The notes under the pieces are model-generated. The model ran no database searches, was not told where the DNA came from, and saw only the letters and a list, made by a program, of their open reading frames with translations. 33,874 nucleotides of DNA from Actinomycetota bacterium. GTDB taxonomy: Bacteria; Actinomycetota; Acidimicrobiia; Acidimicrobiales; BP-101. The stretch lies in assembly GCA_030838265.1 (NCBI GenBank), contig JAUTXA010000245.1, positions 1 to 33,874 of the forward strand, in the 5' to 3' direction. Positions 17,626 through 26,561 of the stretch are shown here, piece by piece. The translations under genes were made by a program, and so were the position numbers. Within the stretch, counting starts at the first letter, position 1. Each line of letters begins with the position of its first letter.

Positions 17626-18696
17626 CTATGCGCCCTCGGTGAGCAGGGCGGCGAGGGTGGTGTGCACGGACTCGAGCTGCGACCGCTCGACCCGCTCGTC
17701 GGCCGAGTGGGCCACGGTCGGCTCACCGGGGCCGAAGTTCGTCGCCGGGATGCCGGCCTGGGCGAAGAACGACACGTCGGTCCAGCCCAGCTTCGCTCGG
17801 GGTGGTTGCCCGGTGCGCCGGACCAGGCCCGACAGCAGCGGGTGGTCGAGCGAGGGAGGCGCGGGGGCAGCGTCGTCGAGCAGCTCGACTCGGTCGCCGC
17901 CGGCCTCGTCGAGGTCGGGCACCAGCACGTCGAGGACGTGAGCCAGGGCGGAAGCGGCGTCGCGGTCGGGGGCGTAGCGGTGGTTGACCTTGAGGACGGC
18001 CCGGTCCGGCACCACGTTGCCGGCCACGCCCCCGTCGATGGCGACGGCCTGCAAGGCCTCGCGGAACTCGCAACCGTCGATGACGGGGCGGCGCTCGTCA
18101 TAGCGGGCCAGCCGCTCGAGGATGGGAGCCAGCCGGTGGATGGCGTTGCGCCCCATCCACGGTCGCGCCGTGTGGGCTCGCGCCCCGGCCAGGGTGATGG
18201 CGACCCGCATGGCGCCCTGGCACCCAGCCTCGACCACGGCGCCGGTGGGCTCACCCAGGATGGCGGCGTCGCCGGCCAGCAAGTCGGGGCGTTGGGCCAG
18301 AAGCTTGGGCAGGCCATTGAACTCGGTGGCGACCTCCTCGCACTCGTAGAAGACGTAGGTGACGTCGACGGCGGGCTCGGGGATGGTCTCGGCCAGCAGA
18401 CAGAACACGGCCAGGCCCGCCTTCATGTCGGCCGCGCCCAGTCCCCAGAGGACATCGCCGTCGACCCGGGCCCGATCGTTCCCGTTGACCGGCACGGTGT
18501 CGGTGTGGCCGGCCAGGATCAGCCTCGATGACCGGCCGAGCTGGGTGCGGGCGACCACGTTGTTCTCGAGACGTGTGACCTCGAGCCCGGGCAGGCCGCG
18601 CAAGAAGGCCTCGAGGTGATCGGTGATGGCTGCCTCGTGGTGGCTGACGGAGGGGATGTCGACCAGGGCGGCGCAGCGCTCGAGCAGATCGGTCAC
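17626..18696 (-). CDS. dapE: Succinyl-diaminopimelate desuccinylase
   Basis: M20 peptidase motifs 'LILAGHTDTVPVNG', 'LWGLGAADMKAGLAVF', 'YECEEVATEFNGL'; overlaps dapD. Confidence 0.9.
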   Translation of the reverse strand: MTDLLERCAALVDIPSVSHHEAAITDHLEAFLRGLPGLEVTRLENNVVARTQLGRSSRLILAGHTDTVPVNGNDRARVDGDVLWGLGAADMKAGLAVFCLLAETIPEPAVDVTYVFYECEEVATEFNGLPKLLAQRPDLLAGDAAILGEPTGAVVEAGCQGAMRVAITLAGARAHTARPWMGRNAIHRLAPILERLARYDERRPVIDGCEFREALQAVAIDGGVAGNVVPDRAVLKVNHRYAPDRDAASALAHVLDVLVPDLDEAGGDRVELLDDAAPAPPSLDHPLLSGLVRRTGQPPRAKLGWTDVSFFAQAGIPATNFGPGEPTVAHSADERVERSQLESVHTTLAALLTEGA

Positions 18697-19514
18697 GAGA
18701 CGCTGACGCCACTCTCCCGGAGAACCTCGTTGAGGTGGTCGCGGTCACCGGGCTCGAGACGGCGCACGATGAGGGCGCACGGCAGGAAGAACTCGCCGCC
18801 GGCGAACTGCCGCTTTCGCTCGGCTCGCATCACGAGGCAGTTGGGCGGGATGACACCGCGGCTCACCTCTTCACCGGACTCGGCGTCGATGACCGGGATG
18901 CCGGGGTTGAGCAGTGTCCCCTCGCCGAGAATGCTCCCGTCGCCCACCCTTGCGCCCTGGGTGATGACCGTCCGGCTGCCCACGAGGCAGTCGTCGCCCA
19001 CGATCACCGGCACGGCGTTCGGCGGCTCGAGCACGCCACCGATCCCGACCCCGCCCGACAGGTGCACGTTGGCGCCGATCTGGGCGCACGAGCCGACGGT
19101 GGCCCACGTGTCGACCATCGTGTTGGCTCCCACCCGGGCGCCGATGTTCACGTAGCTGGGCATCAGGACCACACCGCGATCGAGGAACGAACCCCACCGG
19201 GCCGACGCACCTGGAACCACGCGGACCCCCGCGGCGGCATAGTCCTTCTTGAGCGGGATCTTGTCGTGGTACTCGAAAGCACCAACCTCGGTCGTCTCCA
19301 TCGACGAGAGCTTGAAGAGAAGGAGGATGGCCTCCTTCAGCCACGTCCGGACGGTCACGGCTCCGGTCGCAGCGTCGATCTCGGCCACCCGCGCCTTACC
19401 CGTGTCGAGCAGGTCGATGGCCTGGGCGACCGTCTCGAGGGCGGCGTGGTCGCCGGCCGGGATCTCGGCCCGGTGCTGCCACAGCTCCTGGATCGCACCC
19501 TCGAGATCAGCCAT
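18693..19514 (-). CDS. dapD: 2,3,4,5-tetrahydropyridine-2,6-dicarboxylate N-succinyltransferase
   Basis: 'MADLEGAIQELWQHRAEI' start; left-handed beta-helix hexapeptides 'VLMPSYVNIGARVGANTMVDTWATVGSCAQIGANVHLSGGVGIGGVLEPPNAVPVIVGDDCLVGSRTVI'. Confidence 0.93.
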   Translation of the reverse strand: MADLEGAIQELWQHRAEIPAGDHAALETVAQAIDLLDTGKARVAEIDAATGAVTVRTWLKEAILLLFKLSSMETTEVGAFEYHDKIPLKKDYAAAGVRVVPGASARWGSFLDRGVVLMPSYVNIGARVGANTMVDTWATVGSCAQIGANVHLSGGVGIGGVLEPPNAVPVIVGDDCLVGSRTVITQGARVGDGSILGEGTLLNPGIPVIDAESGEEVSRGVIPPNCLVMRAERKRQFAGGEFFLPCALIVRRLEPGDRDHLNEVLRESGVSVS

Positions 19515-19598
19515 GCCGGCGACATTACCGGCCCTCTCAGGCGTCGATTCGGTACGGTGAACGCCCGAGGTACCAACGCGGGCGCTCGAGGAGGGCAT

Positions 19599-22500
19599 AT
19601 GGCCGACGACGAGGATCTGGAGGCCAGGCTCAATGCGGCGATGGGCACCGGTGATCCCGAGACCCGACGACCAGTGAGCCTGACCGAGGCCCTCTACAGC
19701 CGCATCGTCGAGGTCACCCGCCAAGAGGTCTCCCAGACGACCGAAGTCCTGGGCGAGCTGGTGATCCAGATGGGCCGCCTCGACCGCCGCATGGGCGACA
19801 TCGCGGCTCGCATCGACTCGGCGGCCGAGGCGCCGGCCGTTCAGGGGGACGGACCGGCACCAGCCACCGTCGACCTCGGCGGCATCGAGTCGCGGCTCGA
19901 CCGGCTCGAGTCCCTGCTGGGCGAGCTCCCGGAGCGGGTGGCACCGATGGTTGCGACGAGCGAGCCCGCTCCGGCCGTCGACCTCGATGCCGTCACCAAG
20001 GCCATCGACACCCGCCTGATCGAGATCCGCACCGCCATCCTCACCGGGCAACCCGACCTGGCGTCGGTGACCGACGCCGTGGCTCGCGGCCTGGGCGACG
20101 TGCGCACCGCCATCCTCACCGGCCAGCCCGACCTCTCCCCCGTGACCGACGCCGTGGCCGAGCTGCGCCAGATCGTCGCCGAGCGGCCGGAGACCGGGCC
20201 GACCACCGAGCCTGTCGACCTCTCTCCCGTGACGGCTGCGTTGGCGGACCTTCGCCAGATAACCAGCGCTCCGCCCGATCTCACGCCGGTGACCGACGTC
20301 GTGACCCAATGGCTGGCCGACGTCCGCACGACGCTCTCCTCGCGACTCGACGAGCTTCAGCGGCGACTCGACCAGCCCGCCGACCTCACCTCGGTCTCCG
20401 AAGTCATCGCCGATCGGTTGGCCGCCATGGAAGGCGCCACCAATGCCCATCAGGCCGTGCACACCAGCCGTCTCGACGACCTCGCCACCGCCCTCAGCCA
20501 GGCCACCCAGGGGCTCCACACCCGGCTCGATGAGGTGACGGCCACGCCGACGTCCGAGGTCAGCGAGGTGACCCCCGCGGTGCAGGCCCTCGAAGCCGCC
20601 CTCGACAGCCTGCGGGTCGAGCTCGCCAGCAGGGACGAGCGGCTGGGGCAACATCTCGATCGCGTCGAGCAGGCCGCGTCGGAGACGCCGATGCCACCCG
20701 AGCTCGAGGCCCTGGCCACCGACCTGGCCAACCGGCTCGACGCCGTGCACGCCGCGGTGAGCGATGGGCCCGACGTCGCCGCCGTGGTCCGCGGCGCGGT
20801 GGCCGGTGGCAACGACAACGTGGCCGCCGAGCTCGAGAACATCAAGGCGGCGGTGGCGGCCACCGGGGCCCGGTTCGCGGCTCGTCTCGACGAGTTGCGC
20901 AGCGAGCTGGCGGGCGACGCCGATGCCAACATCGCTCGCCTCGAGGCCGGCCTCTCGGCCCAGACGGCCCCGCCGGTCGAGATCGACCTGGCCCCGATCC
21001 AGACGTCGCTCACCGAGCTTCGATCGCGGCTTGCCGATCTGTCCGACCAGGCCGTGGCCACCGAAGAGTCCTTGGCCACCGGGCTGGCCAACCTGCACGC
21101 CTCGATGGGGCAGGCGCCCGACCTGTCGGCGGTGACGACTGCGGTCGAGGACGTGGCCCAGCGGGTCGAGCGCTTGGCGACGGGCGTAGCCCACGACAAC
21201 GAAGCCCTGGCCGCCCGCCTCGACGCGGCGCGGACCGAGCTGCAGGCCTCGCTGGACGGTGTCGAGATCGGCCCGCCGCTCGAGGCCGCGGTCGCCGGCG
21301 TGCTCGCCCAGCTCAGCGACCTGGCTGTCGCCCAGTCGCAGTCCCACCAGGTCGTCACCGCCCGCCTCGACGAGCTGCACCAGGCCGCGGGCGGCGCCAC
21401 CGACCTCAGCCCGGTGACCGAGGCGCTGGCCGAGGCCGTGGCCTCCCTCGGCGGACAGCTCGACGCCATCGCCCTGGCCAGCAGCCAGCCGCCCGATCTG
21501 TCGGTCATGGCTGAGCGGGTCGCGACCGGCCTGGCCGACACCCGCGATCAGATGGTGAGCGCCCACGAGGCCATCCGGTCGGAGGTCGAGGGCCTCGGTC
21601 ACGCCCTCGCCGAGGTCGCCGGGCAAGTCGGCGCCGCCCCGTCCGCGGTCGAGGCGTTGGGGGCTCGCCTCGACTCGATCGAGCGGCTGGCCAGCCAGGT
21701 GCAGGCCGACGCCCGGCAGACGAGCACCGACATCGCCGCCGGCCAAGCCAGCACCACCACGGCGGTGCAGGCCGTCGTCGACGGCTTGACCGACCAGCTC
21801 ACCCGAGTCACGACCGCCCTCGACGACATCCGCGCCACCCCACCCGACACCGAGGTGGTCGACGCCAAGCTCGAGCAGCTGCGGGTCCTGGTGAGCAACC
21901 TGGGCGAGGGGGTGGCAGCCATCGAGGCCAGGAGCGGCACCGAGGCTCTGGGCGCCCTTTTCGACGAGCACGCGGCCGACGCCCTGGCCCGGCTCCAAGA
22001 GGTCACCGAGGGGATGCTCACGCGGATGGAGCGGCGAGACAGCCAGCTCTCGTCCATCAGGGTCGACATCGAACAGGCCCTGGGCCAGACGCTCAATCAC
22101 TTGCAGGGCGACCTCACCACCGTGCGCGAGGCGGTCACCGCCGGCGAGCAGCAGGGCAACCGCCGGTTCGAGCGCCTCGACAGCGAGCTGGCCGAGCTGC
22201 GCACCGAGCTGGCCGGCGTGGGCCGGCTGCAGCAGAGCCTCTCCGACGTGGGCGGTGGCCTCGACGCCCTGCGATCGCTGGTGGCCGAGCAGGGCGAGGC
22301 CGACGCCAGCGGCCGGCTGATGTCGGGCCTGGCCGACATCACGCGCGACCTGGCTGCCACCCGCGAGCGCGTCCTCGAGGTCGACCGCAGCATCGCCGCC
22401 ATGAAGGGAGACCTGGCCGGGTCGACCGAGGCGGCCCAAGCCAGCTTCCAGGCCGCCGACGCGGTGGCGACGCTCGTGCAGGGCGTGACCCGGCTCGAGA

Positions 22501-22757
22501 GCAGGCTGGGCATCGAGGTCGATGACATCACCCGCCGCCTCGACGCCGTGGCCGCCGCCCTCGAGGCCATGGCCACCCGCGAGACCTCGACGAACGCGGC
22601 GTCGACCGCGTCGCGCCAGCGGATGGCGAGTGGCATGTCCGATCGCCTCATCGCCATCCGTGAGGTGGCGGCCGGTGTGAGCGAGGCGGTCCGCAACGAT
22701 GCTCGACGGCGCCGGGAGCGCCGGGCCATTGAGTCCGGGCATCGTCCGTCGGAGTGA
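19599..22757 (+). CDS. 1052-aa repetitive coiled-coil protein of unknown function
   Basis: ATG 19599 after GAGGAG; long Ala/Leu/Glu/Asp/Arg-rich heptad-like sequence without signal peptide or TM; recurrent 'xPDLSxVTxAVxxxLxxxR' units; stop overlaps the downstream methyltransferase start (GTGA). Confidence 0.8.
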   Translation: MADDEDLEARLNAAMGTGDPETRRPVSLTEALYSRIVEVTRQEVSQTTEVLGELVIQMGRLDRRMGDIAARIDSAAEAPAVQGDGPAPATVDLGGIESRLDRLESLLGELPERVAPMVATSEPAPAVDLDAVTKAIDTRLIEIRTAILTGQPDLASVTDAVARGLGDVRTAILTGQPDLSPVTDAVAELRQIVAERPETGPTTEPVDLSPVTAALADLRQITSAPPDLTPVTDVVTQWLADVRTTLSSRLDELQRRLDQPADLTSVSEVIADRLAAMEGATNAHQAVHTSRLDDLATALSQATQGLHTRLDEVTATPTSEVSEVTPAVQALEAALDSLRVELASRDERLGQHLDRVEQAASETPMPPELEALATDLANRLDAVHAAVSDGPDVAAVVRGAVAGGNDNVAAELENIKAAVAATGARFAARLDELRSELAGDADANIARLEAGLSAQTAPPVEIDLAPIQTSLTELRSRLADLSDQAVATEESLATGLANLHASMGQAPDLSAVTTAVEDVAQRVERLATGVAHDNEALAARLDAARTELQASLDGVEIGPPLEAAVAGVLAQLSDLAVAQSQSHQVVTARLDELHQAAGGATDLSPVTEALAEAVASLGGQLDAIALASSQPPDLSVMAERVATGLADTRDQMVSAHEAIRSEVEGLGHALAEVAGQVGAAPSAVEALGARLDSIERLASQVQADARQTSTDIAAGQASTTTAVQAVVDGLTDQLTRVTTALDDIRATPPDTEVVDAKLEQLRVLVSNLGEGVAAIEARSGTEALGALFDEHAADALARLQEVTEGMLTRMERRDSQLSSIRVDIEQALGQTLNHLQGDLTTVREAVTAGEQQGNRRFERLDSELAELRTELAGVGRLQQSLSDVGGGLDALRSLVAEQGEADASGRLMSGLADITRDLAATRERVLEVDRSIAAMKGDLAGSTEAAQASFQAADAVATLVQGVTRLESRLGIEVDDITRRLDAVAAALEAMATRETSTNAASTASRQRMASGMSDRLIAIREVAAGVSEAVRNDARRRRERRAIESGHRPSE
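20028..20177 (+). repeat. Near-identical 75-bp (25-codon) tandem duplication inside the coiled-coil gene
   Basis: 'cgcaccgccatcctcaccgg[g/c]ca[a/g]cccgacct..' begins at 20028 and again at 20103; translates to RTAILTGQPDLASVTDAVARGLGDV / RTAILTGQPDLSPVTDAVAELRQIV. Confidence 0.85.
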
Positions 22758-23392
22758 TCCGCCACCTCGAGCGTGTCATCCCCGCCGCGCCCGGCAAGCC
22801 CGAGCGGGGCTCGGCCGAACACCCCATGCGCAAGGTGACCGAGGCGGTGGCGTCGGGTGCCGCGACGGCATGGACGACCGAGCAGGCAGCCGAAGTCGAG
22901 TCCTTCTTCGACGACCTGGCCGACGAGTGGCACACCCGGTCTGATCCGCATCGCGACGAGCCCCTGCGCGACGCCTTCGACCGAGGCGGCATCCCGAGCC
23001 ATGGCGTAATGCTCGAGGTCGGATCGGGCACGGGCCTGCTCACTCCGTCCCTCTTCGCCCGGGGTGCGGCCGTGATCGCCCTCGACCTGTCCTTCGAGAT
23101 GCTCAAGTTCGCTCCCGCCGAATTGGCCCCGCGGCTGCAAGCCGACGCCGCCCGCCTGCCCTTCCCCGACCGCTCGATCACCTCGGCCGTCTTGATCAAT
23201 GCCTTCCTCTTCCCCGACGAGACCGACCGGGTGCTGACCGACGACGGAGCCTTGGTGTGGGTCAACACCTCGGGCGACAAGACCCCGATCTACCTCAGCG
23301 CCGACGACGTCGACGCCGCCCTGCCAGGAGCATGGACAGGTCTGGCGGCCGAAGCCGGATGGGGGACGTGGGCGGTGCTGCGCCGAGCCTGA
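22754..23392 (+). CDS. Class I SAM-dependent methyltransferase
   Basis: 'VMLEVGSGTGLLTPSLFARGAAVIALDLSFEMLKFA', 'LQADAARLPFPDRSITSAVLINAFLF'; GTG start overlapping the upstream stop. Confidence 0.9.
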   Translation: MIRHLERVIPAAPGKPERGSAEHPMRKVTEAVASGAATAWTTEQAAEVESFFDDLADEWHTRSDPHRDEPLRDAFDRGGIPSHGVMLEVGSGTGLLTPSLFARGAAVIALDLSFEMLKFAPAELAPRLQADAARLPFPDRSITSAVLINAFLFPDETDRVLTDDGALVWVNTSGDKTPIYLSADDVDAALPGAWTGLAAEAGWGTWAVLRRA

Positions 23393-23395
23393 AGG

Positions 23396-24511
23396 TCAGG
23401 CCACGCCGAGACGCCGGGCGACGAGGTCGAGGCGGGCCGCGGGCTGAACCAGGGCGACGCGGACATGTCTCGCACCGGCCGGCCCGTATGTGTCTCCGGG
23501 ACTCACGAGAACACCCCCGTCGGTGGCCAGTCGGTCGGTGAGCCCCCACGCATCGCCGTCGGGCACGGGCACCCAGAGGTAGAAGCCACCGCCCGGGAGC
23601 TCGGCCTTCAAGCCGATGGCGGCGAGGATGTCGCGGAAGCGCTCGAGGCGATCGAGGTACCGGACCCGTTGCTCGTCGACGTGGACGTCATCGCCGAGAG
23701 CCGCGGTGGCCGCCGCCTGGCTGGGACCCGGCACCATCATCCCGACGTGCTTGCGCGTCTCGGCCAGGTAGTGGACGAGGTCGGGATCGCCGGCGTAGAA
23801 GCCGACTCGCACGCCGGCCAGGTTCGAGCGCTTCGACAGCGAGTGCAGAGCCACCACCCCGTCGAGGCCGTGCTCGAGGATGGTGTGGCGCGGGCCGTCC
23901 CACGTGAACTCGACGTAGCACTCGTCGCTGAAGACGGGCACGCCATGGGCGCGGCCCCAGCCGGCGGCGGCGGCCAGGTCGTCGATCTGGCCCGCCGGGT
24001 TGCCGGGGGTGTTGACCCAGAGGCACAGGGCGCGCGACGCGTCTTCGTCGCTCACCGCGCTCAGATCGAGACGCCATTGGTCGTCGACCGGAACGGGAAC
24101 GGCCCGGCAGCCGGCCAGGATGGCCCCCATCTCGTAGGTCGGGTAGGCCAGCTCGGGGTAGAGCACGGTGTCGCGCATCGGGGTCCGCAAGCGGAGCCAC
24201 TGGGGCAAGGTCCCCACCATCTCCTTGGTACCGACGCACGCGGCCACCGCGTCGACCGGCACCTCGACCCCGAGGCGGCGCTCCATCCAGCGGCGCGCCG
24301 CGTCGCGGAAGGCCGGGAACCCGACCGACGCCGGGTAGCCCCGCTCGGTGTCGGACGAGGCGAGAGCGTCGACGACGAAGGGCGGCGGCGGGTCACAGGG
24401 GGTGCCGATGGAGAGGTCGACGATGCCCCCCTCGTGGGCCTCGGCCTTGGCCCGCGACCCGGCGGTCTTCTCGTAGGGGTACAGCGGCGGGACGAAGCCT
24501 TGGGTGCTCAC
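23396..24511 (-). CDS. dapC: Succinyldiaminopimelate transaminase (class I/II aminotransferase)
   Basis: 'FVPPLYPYEKTAGSRAKAEAHEGGIVDLSIGTPCDPPP', 'FSDECYVEFTWDG', 'LHSLSKRSNLAGVRVGFYAGD'. Confidence 0.92.
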   Translation of the reverse strand: MSTQGFVPPLYPYEKTAGSRAKAEAHEGGIVDLSIGTPCDPPPPFVVDALASSDTERGYPASVGFPAFRDAARRWMERRLGVEVPVDAVAACVGTKEMVGTLPQWLRLRTPMRDTVLYPELAYPTYEMGAILAGCRAVPVPVDDQWRLDLSAVSDEDASRALCLWVNTPGNPAGQIDDLAAAAGWGRAHGVPVFSDECYVEFTWDGPRHTILEHGLDGVVALHSLSKRSNLAGVRVGFYAGDPDLVHYLAETRKHVGMMVPGPSQAAATAALGDDVHVDEQRVRYLDRLERFRDILAAIGLKAELPGGGFYLWVPVPDGDAWGLTDRLATDGGVLVSPGDTYGPAGARHVRVALVQPAARLDLVARRLGVA

Positions 24512-25794
24512 GACACCTCGAACTGGGCAAAGCGATTGGCGCCGGCGTCGTCGAGACGAGCGCGCAGGCGGGTGCCCGTGGCCTCGTGAGCCTCGGTGAT
24601 GACTTCGCCCTCGCGGTGGACGGCCGCCACCACATCACCCCGATCGAACGGGACGAGGAGCTCGATCACCCGGTCGAGGGCGCGCAGCCGGTCGCCGACC
24701 GTCTCGAGCAGGCCCTCGATGCCCTCACCGCTGAGGGCCGAGAGGTAGACCGAACCGGGTTGGCGGCCGGCCAGGCGCTTGGCCTCGGTGGTGATGTCGG
24801 CCTTGTTGTAGGCCAGCAGCTCGGGCACGTCCTGCGCCCCGATCTCGGCCAGCACGGCCCGCACGGCGTCGATCTCGGCTTGGGGATCAGGGGCGGCGGA
24901 GTCGACGACATGGACCAGAAGATCGGACTCACCCACCACCTCGAGCGTGGAACGGAAGGCCTCGACCAGCTGGTGGGGCAGCTTCCGGATGAAGCCGACG
25001 GTGTCGGAGAGGACGACGCTCTCGCCACCGGGCAGGTCGAGGCGCCGGGTACGCGGGTCGAGGGTGGCGAAGAGGCGGTCCTCGACGAGGACGCCGGCGT
25101 CCGTGAGCCGGTTGAGCAACGTCGACTTGCCGGCGTTGGTGTACCCCACCAGCGACACCGTGCGGTGCCGCGACCGGGCGCGGGACTTGCGCTGGGTTCG
25201 GCGGGTCAGGGTCAGCTGCTTGAGGTCGGCCTCGAGCTTGGTGACCCGGCGCAGCAGCCGCCGGCGATCGATCTCGAGCTGCGTCTCGCCCGGCCCCCTC
25301 GACCCGATCGGCGCCCGGGCCGCGCCGGCACCCATGGCGCCGGCCTGCTGGGAGAGCTGCTTGCCCCGGCCCCGCAGGCGGGGCAGGCGGTGACGGAGGA
25401 GGGCCAGCTCGACCTGGGCCTTGCCCTCTTGGGTCCTGGCGTTCTGGGCGAAGATGTCGAGGATGACGTCGGTGCGGTCGATGGCCGTGCGGCCCAGGAT
25501 CTTCTCGAGGTTGCGCTGCTGGGCGGGGCTCAGCTCGTCGTCGAACACGACCGTGTCGGAGTCGACCTCGAGCGAGAGCTCGTGCAGCTCTTGGGCCTTG
25601 CCCTTGCCGACGTAGGTGGCGGGGTCTGGGCGGTCGCGGCGCTGCAACACCCGACCCACCACGTCGGCGCCGGCGGTGTCGACCAGCAGGGCCAGCTCGT
25701 CGAGCGACTCCTCGACGTCGTCGGGACGCAGCGGAGGGATCACCACGCCGACCAGCACGATGCGCTCCCGGAAGGTGCGCTCGATCAGCGTCAT
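24508..25794 (-). CDS. hflX: GTPase HflX
   Basis: 'GDRDPATYVGKGKAQEL'-type N-terminal domain, 'SRGPGETQLEIDRR', 'VSLVGYTNAGKSTLLNRLTDAGVLVEDRLFATLDPRTR', 'LSDTVGFIRKLPHQLVEAFRSTLE'. Start ATG 25794. Confidence 0.96.
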   Translation of the reverse strand: MTLIERTFRERIVLVGVVIPPLRPDDVEESLDELALLVDTAGADVVGRVLQRRDRPDPATYVGKGKAQELHELSLEVDSDTVVFDDELSPAQQRNLEKILGRTAIDRTDVILDIFAQNARTQEGKAQVELALLRHRLPRLRGRGKQLSQQAGAMGAGAARAPIGSRGPGETQLEIDRRRLLRRVTKLEADLKQLTLTRRTQRKSRARSRHRTVSLVGYTNAGKSTLLNRLTDAGVLVEDRLFATLDPRTRRLDLPGGESVVLSDTVGFIRKLPHQLVEAFRSTLEVVGESDLLVHVVDSAAPDPQAEIDAVRAVLAEIGAQDVPELLAYNKADITTEAKRLAGRQPGSVYLSALSGEGIEGLLETVGDRLRALDRVIELLVPFDRGDVVAAVHREGEVITEAHEATGTRLRARLDDAGANRFAQFEVS

Positions 25795-26561
25795 GGCGTC
25801 TCGACCTCGACCATGGCCACCCATTGGGTGGGGCCACTGAGGACGACGGTCTCGCCCACCTCGACGGTGAGGTCGCCGCCGGGGTTGTGAACGACAACCG
25901 GGCTGTCGACCAGGCCCCAGCCCACGGCGGCGGCCGCCACCGCGCACGAGCCCGTCCCGCAGGCCTCGGTGAGGCCGACCCCGCGCTCCCACACCCGCAT
26001 GGCGAGATGACCGCGGTCGACCACGCGAATGATCTCGACGTTGTGGTCGGGGCGCTGGTGACCGAGCGCCTCGAGGTCGAGGGCCGCGCTGCCGTCGTCG
26101 ACGAGCACGAGGTGGGGGTTGGCGATGGCGACCTCGGCCGACTGCGGGACGGGTCCGTCGCCGAGCGGCTCGACCTTGGCCGGACCCATGTCGACGCTGG
26201 CCCACCGCAGCCCGGGCGCCGTCTCGTGGCCGATGCGCACGGACCGAACGCCTTCGACCGTCGCCACCTCGAGCTCGGGCCCGGTGGCCACGCCGGCGTC
26301 GACCACGGCTTGGGCTACGCAGCGCATGCCGTTGCCGCTCATCTCGGCCTCGCCTCCGTCGGCGTTGCGCAGCTCGAAGCTCACGGCCGCACCGCCGCGG
26401 CCCCGCCCCACGCGGATGAGGCCGTCGGCGCCGACCCCGAGGTGGCGATCGCACAACGAGCGCGCCAGCTCGGCGGTGAGCGGGCGGCTCTCATCGAGGT
26501 CGAGATAGACGAGGAAGTCGTTGCCCAAGCCGTGGTGCTTCGACAACGTCAGTCGTGACAT
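25791..26561 (-). CDS. dapF: Diaminopimelate epimerase
   Basis: 'LTLSKHHGLGNDFLVYLD', 'RNADGGEAEMSGNGMRCVAQ', 'ERGVGLTEACGTGSCAVAAAA'. Confidence 0.97.
   Translation of the reverse strand: MSRLTLSKHHGLGNDFLVYLDLDESRPLTAELARSLCDRHLGVGADGLIRVGRGRGGAAVSFELRNADGGEAEMSGNGMRCVAQAVVDAGVATGPELEVATVEGVRSVRIGHETAPGLRWASVDMGPAKVEPLGDGPVPQSAEVAIANPHLVLVDDGSAALDLEALGHQRPDHNVEIIRVVDRGHLAMRVWERGVGLTEACGTGSCAVAAAAVGWGLVDSPVVVHNPGGDLTVEVGETVVLSGPTQWVAMVEVETP

Follow-up and report, generated by a model that had tools for sequence, protein, structure and literature searches.

What kind of protein is encoded by the long, repeat-rich gene that stands between dapD and dapC in this member of the Acidimicrobiales, and does it have relatives that could tell us how it came about? 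We analyzed the whole 33,874-nucleotide stretch of DNA (here called the window) and compared the gene's product, which we call the rod protein, with genomes of the same order and class.

A coding frame outside the named families

The start, length, and stop given in the sequence-only reading were correct (Table 1), and several lines of evidence indicate that the frame is genuine. The GC contents at the three codon positions (0.773/0.503/0.913) resemble those of the adjacent dapC and dapE, codon log-odds trained on seven genes of the window stay above 0 on the plus strand over the full length of the gene, and synonymous codon usage scores higher on the plus strand (0.49) than on the minus strand (0.27). 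The start codon is preceded by a likely ribosome-binding site, and a homologue exists in another genome (G172, described below). The residues A, L, V, E, R, D, and T are abundant in the product, whereas Cys is absent and there are just four Lys and one Trp. The codons of the 1,349-aa antisense open reading frame (ORF) align with those of the rod gene, and its frame is also that of dapD. Outside dapD, this ORF is a by-product of high GC content and no gene; we infer from the codon register that it is so long because each stop in it would call for a TTA, CTA, or TCA codon on the sense side, and such codons are rare when the genome has ∼72% G+C.

This antisense overlap, together with a very patchy distribution and a scarcely conserved rod section, could suggest that the rod ORF is itself no gene or is drifting without a selected function. 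Against this stand the codon usage, the codon-position GC, and the ribosome-binding site, as well as the conservation of both ends in G172 and a dN/dS below 1 between two short dapD-linked proteins (both given below), and we regard it as very improbable.

Table 1. Coordinates of the features discussed, in the window unless a locus is named
Feature	Position	Strand	Remark
Coiled-coil rod protein gene	19599..22757	+	1052 aa; ATG at 19599, stop ends at 22757
GGAGGG, likely ribosome-binding site	19590..19595	+	3 nt upstream of the rod-gene ATG; read from sequence
Conserved N-terminal head, aa 1-75 (MADDEDL...TTEVLGELVIQMGRLDRR)	19599..19823	+	alignment with G172
First cluster of degenerate DLxxVxxxV repeats	19872..20408	+	aa 92-270
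Second, sparser DLxxVxxxV cluster	20985..21521	+	aa 463-641
Conserved C-terminal coil and basic tail, aa 913-1041	22335..22721	+	alignment with G172
Tail motif SDRLIAIRE, [ST]DRLxx[ILV]R[DE]	22638..22664	+	confined to four proteins
Class I SAM methyltransferase	22754..23392	+	4-base overlap (GTGA) with rod-gene stop
dapD	18693..19514	-	divergent from rod gene, 84 bp between
Antisense ORF, 1349 aa	18693..22742	-	codon-aligned with rod gene, in frame with dapD
G172 homologue, 559 aa	L278:5591-7270	-	

The protein had been described as fitting no named family, and our searches bear this out. Neither Pfam, NCBIfam, PHROGs, nor PADLOC gave a credible domain or an enzyme domain, all library matches being either below the cut-off or summed coiled-coil matches, and a sequence search of the PDB returned no match. 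A Foldseek search of the structure model against the PDB yielded nothing with an E value below 0.001, and the whole protein had no match in 60 relatives, in GTDB contigs, or in viral contigs.

Conserved ends around a repeat-built middle

When 367 genomes of the order were searched with the last 112 aa, one clear relative emerged (E = 7e-13), a protein of genome G172, which belongs to another family of the order. At the N terminus, the alignment of the first 110 aa scored 136 (best of 2,000 shuffles, 63), with 28 of 70 residues identical (40%); at the C terminus, the last 140 aa scored 210 (best of 2,000 shuffles, 88), with ∼58% identity. The family as defined with G172, by a conserved head and a conserved tail carrying SDRLxxIRE, thus includes the 1,052-aa protein.

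Other matches were rejected. The sole match to the N-terminal 115 aa among 396 genomes of the class (in G436) runs antisense to recA and was attributed to chance, and C-terminal matches in G304, G049, and G168 fall in unrelated frames. Matches on a Sinorhizobium plasmid (23% identity) were not accepted as relatives because they cover the repeats only; the protein concerned, a hypothetical protein of a Sinorhizobium chiapasense plasmid (L282, 2701-3738), is weakly similar to the G172 repeat array alone.

The middle of the G172 protein consists of 13 fresh repeat units of 21 aa (for example, VDLEPVHTKLDEIASRPMPEP), with 11 of the 12 spacings exactly 21 aa. At the DNA level this is a 63-bp coding array of ∼11 copies (10.9) with higher-order periods of 126 and 189 bp (L278:6174-6860), where copy-number change is likely. 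A weight matrix built from the G172 units found 10 sites in the rod protein, compared with a mean of 0.63 and a maximum of 5 in shuffled sequences, the best sites including those at aa 206, 91, 462, 601, and 177. The rod-protein motifs are therefore most simply explained as eroded remnants of an array of this type.

All the PDLSxVTxAV-type motifs listed in the sequence-only reading are present. We counted 12 instances of D[LV]xx[VIM]xxx[VIL] in the rod protein (mean in shuffled copies, 0.5) and eight of the strict form DLxxV[TS]xx[VIL] (0.035 in shuffles). The claim that a Pro-Asp motif interrupts the helices also stood, but not that it does so periodically: the motifs lie 20 to 205 residues apart, in two clusters (Table 1), although the G172 units are strictly spaced at 21 aa. 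A single-sequence AlphaFold2 model shows the rod protein as entirely helical, with the helices interrupted, but at low confidence (pLDDT 50; the other of the two models made, also of low confidence, has 46). Of the 12 motifs, 11 lie within 0 to 2 residues of a predicted helix start, the helices beginning 1 to 2 residues after the motif's Asp (random mean, 0.8; maximum, 5; 20,000 draws). The motif thus looks like a helix cap (Pro/Val-Asp-Leu) that would break a rod, rather than itself being a filament-forming module.

Hydrophobic autocorrelation peaks at lags of 7, 4, 11, 14, and 18, and the Fourier spectrum of the whole protein peaks at exactly 3.50 with a power of 22.9 (shuffled 99% point, 4.3), the signature of heptads; together with the long predicted helices, this indicates an extensive heptad coiled coil, as is required (80 or more residues) of intermediate-filament-like coiled-coil-rich proteins, in line with the heptad-like segments noticed before. 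The absence of a signal peptide and of transmembrane segments was likewise upheld: the N terminus is not hydrophobic, and the best 19-residue Kyte-Doolittle mean is 1.33. As read from sequence and prediction, the architecture comprises a ∼75-aa head, a middle of repeat helices and longer heptad coils, and a C-terminal coil with a basic SDRLxxIRE tail, the repeat helices of the middle consisting of tandem units of 21 to 25 aa, each combining a Pro/Val-Asp-Leu cap with an amphipathic helix.

The C terminus is the sole net-positive stretch of the protein and includes RRRRERR, which would suit an SMC-like or other DNA-organizing coiled-coil protein whose Arg-rich tail binds DNA. An archaeal SMC-related model of NCBIfam (NF045487) does match the coil (E = 2.5e-14), weakly over aa 650 to 931, and shares with the rod protein its long coil. 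The score of 52.8 is, however, far below the cut-off of 300; head domains are lacking, and neither a Walker A motif ([AG]xxxxGK[ST]) nor an LSGG signature is present, which makes a DNA-organizing role of this type improbable.

Neighboring genes and short proteins beside dapD

In the window, dapE, dapD, a dapC-like transaminase, and probably dapF (judged by its start) are grouped with hflX (17629-26558); with the actinobacterial model, the score of the dapC-like protein is 335, somewhat short of the cut-off (355.65). In G172, the rod gene is not beside dapD and lies just before rimP-nusA-infB, with cdsA ∼4 kb off on the other side (cdsA, rimP, and nusA were assigned by Pfam, and infB was read from its start alone). 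The differing neighborhoods give no functional clue. The length, the helical content, and a weak PHROG tape-measure match (E = 1e-4) might point to a tape-measure protein of a phage or to a protein of some other mobile element. Against this, the gene is set between the housekeeping genes dapD and dapC (neighbors dapE, dapD, methyltransferase, dapC, and hflX), its relatives are likewise chromosomal, and searches of 50,697 phage records, of 72,556 plasmids, and of viral contigs gave no match. We give this explanation hardly any credence.

A synteny search for a pair formed by the coiled-coil gene and the methyltransferase gene that overlaps its stop had been suggested, and a check across 397 genomes of the order and 57 GTDB loci did not support such a pair. 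The methyltransferase occurs in 99 of the 397 genomes; in the loci read, it lies mostly away from dapD, adjoining for example serS or purH, and in G055, G007, and G001 it lies directly against dapD without a rod gene. These 99 genomes do not include G172. The rod gene is kept in G066, but the methyltransferase that follows it is degenerate, covering only residues 4 to 77 with a broken frame (L205:3991-4209), unless this is an assembly error. The two genes therefore do not form a conserved unit.

Two genomes of one genus, G009 and G066, encode coiled-coil proteins of 189 and 308 aa that are divergent from dapD, as is the rod gene here. Their ends are near-identical, the difference being an inserted helical middle of ∼120 aa, and dN/dS between them is 0.57. 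The short and long proteins alike begin with MADD and carry [ST]DRLxx[IL]R[DE] in the tail, a motif chosen post hoc, which among the 1.92 million six-frame residues of all loci analyzed is restricted to the rod protein, G172, G009, and G066. Profiles built from the ends of the long proteins did not match the short ones; nevertheless, position, start, and post hoc motif suggest that these are probably members of the family. Length would then range from 189 to 1,052 aa, while the two clear members span 559 to 1,052 aa as translated. Matches of the short proteins in G161 and G395 were due to chance. In a census of 60 further dapD-upstream regions, dapC lay within 300 bp in 33 and a coiled-coil ORF was recognized in one (G046) and in none of the others. 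This ORF (MAEGEFDDRPGAVGPALDRL...), in the last 360 bases of L214, is divergent from dapD and cut by the contig end, a possible further member.

A probable spacer or scaffold of variable length

On balance, and with moderate confidence, we read the rod protein as a soluble cytoplasmic spacer or scaffold of an undescribed family in the Acidimicrobiales, with a conserved head and basic tail around a rod that gains length as its repeats are duplicated. This fits two conserved ends, a variable and barely conserved rod, the absence of enzyme domains and transmembrane segments, and the basic tail. The coils would self-associate, and the Pro-Asp breaks may form joints or hinges. The middle would serve as an adjustable spacer, lengthened by DNA duplication of 63-bp units that subsequently decay, while the two ends may bind partners that need to be separated or clustered.

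The protein had been proposed to be a cytoplasmic coiled-coil filament or scaffold. The cytoplasmic coiled-coil part held, and "scaffold or spacer" is safer than "filament." Filament formation is possible, but it cannot be claimed; in a survey, coiled-coil content alone was no predictor of polymerization (PMC7002697).

This point weighs also against a cytoskeletal role, as for Helicobacter pylori Ccrp, in which the protein would help to set cell shape or polar growth. Such a role would agree with a long segmented coiled coil that has no enzyme domain and is lineage restricted and variable in sequence, with the strong variation of coiled-coil-rich bacterial proteins between strains (reviewed in PMC3296230), and with the position of the gene among genes for diaminopimelate, a cell wall precursor. 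However, the clear homologue in G172 is found outside the diaminopimelate genes, and the genome of the rod protein itself already encodes, at other locations, DivIVA as well as two MreB-like proteins and a fragment of one more. A cytoskeletal role thus seems unlikely, if worth keeping in mind.

The rod protein is one of the coiled-coil-rich proteins, a kind already known, while the family itself is rare and undescribed. The intermediate-filament-like members of this kind (FilP and Scy of Streptomyces, RsmP of Corynebacterium, crescentin, and H. pylori Ccrp) similarly lack enzyme domains, are restricted to particular lineages, and have heptad coils that are long and segmented and sequences that are poorly conserved (PMC3296230). 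No sequence relation to the rod protein was found, and its own traits are a tandem-repeat middle between conserved end regions and Pro-Asp caps where helices begin. DivIVA/Wag31 likewise combines a conserved end region with coils of very different size across species (PMC3296230), but the rod protein has no DivIVA domain (PF05103, Pfam) and the DivIVA of this genome is separate, on contig C230.

The Acidimicrobiales are widespread and known mostly through metagenomes, and a literature search found no coiled-coil structural proteins described from them. A more far-reaching possibility, which we hold to be rather improbable, is that the protein is a length-tunable internal ruler or filament of the order, with its ends on fixed cell structures and with selection setting the distance via expansion and contraction of the 63-bp coding repeat. 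If a distance-setting or filament role were true, a major bacterial order would gain a structural protein not known before; otherwise, the protein would be another unexplained coiled coil. An array that is still recent in one species but already degraded in a second, between fixed ends, offers a clean case of how a long coiled coil originates. Coiled-coil molecular spacers (reviewed in PMC5082667) similarly consist of a divergent rod that keeps two ends apart, but their length is usually kept, whereas that of the rod protein varies.
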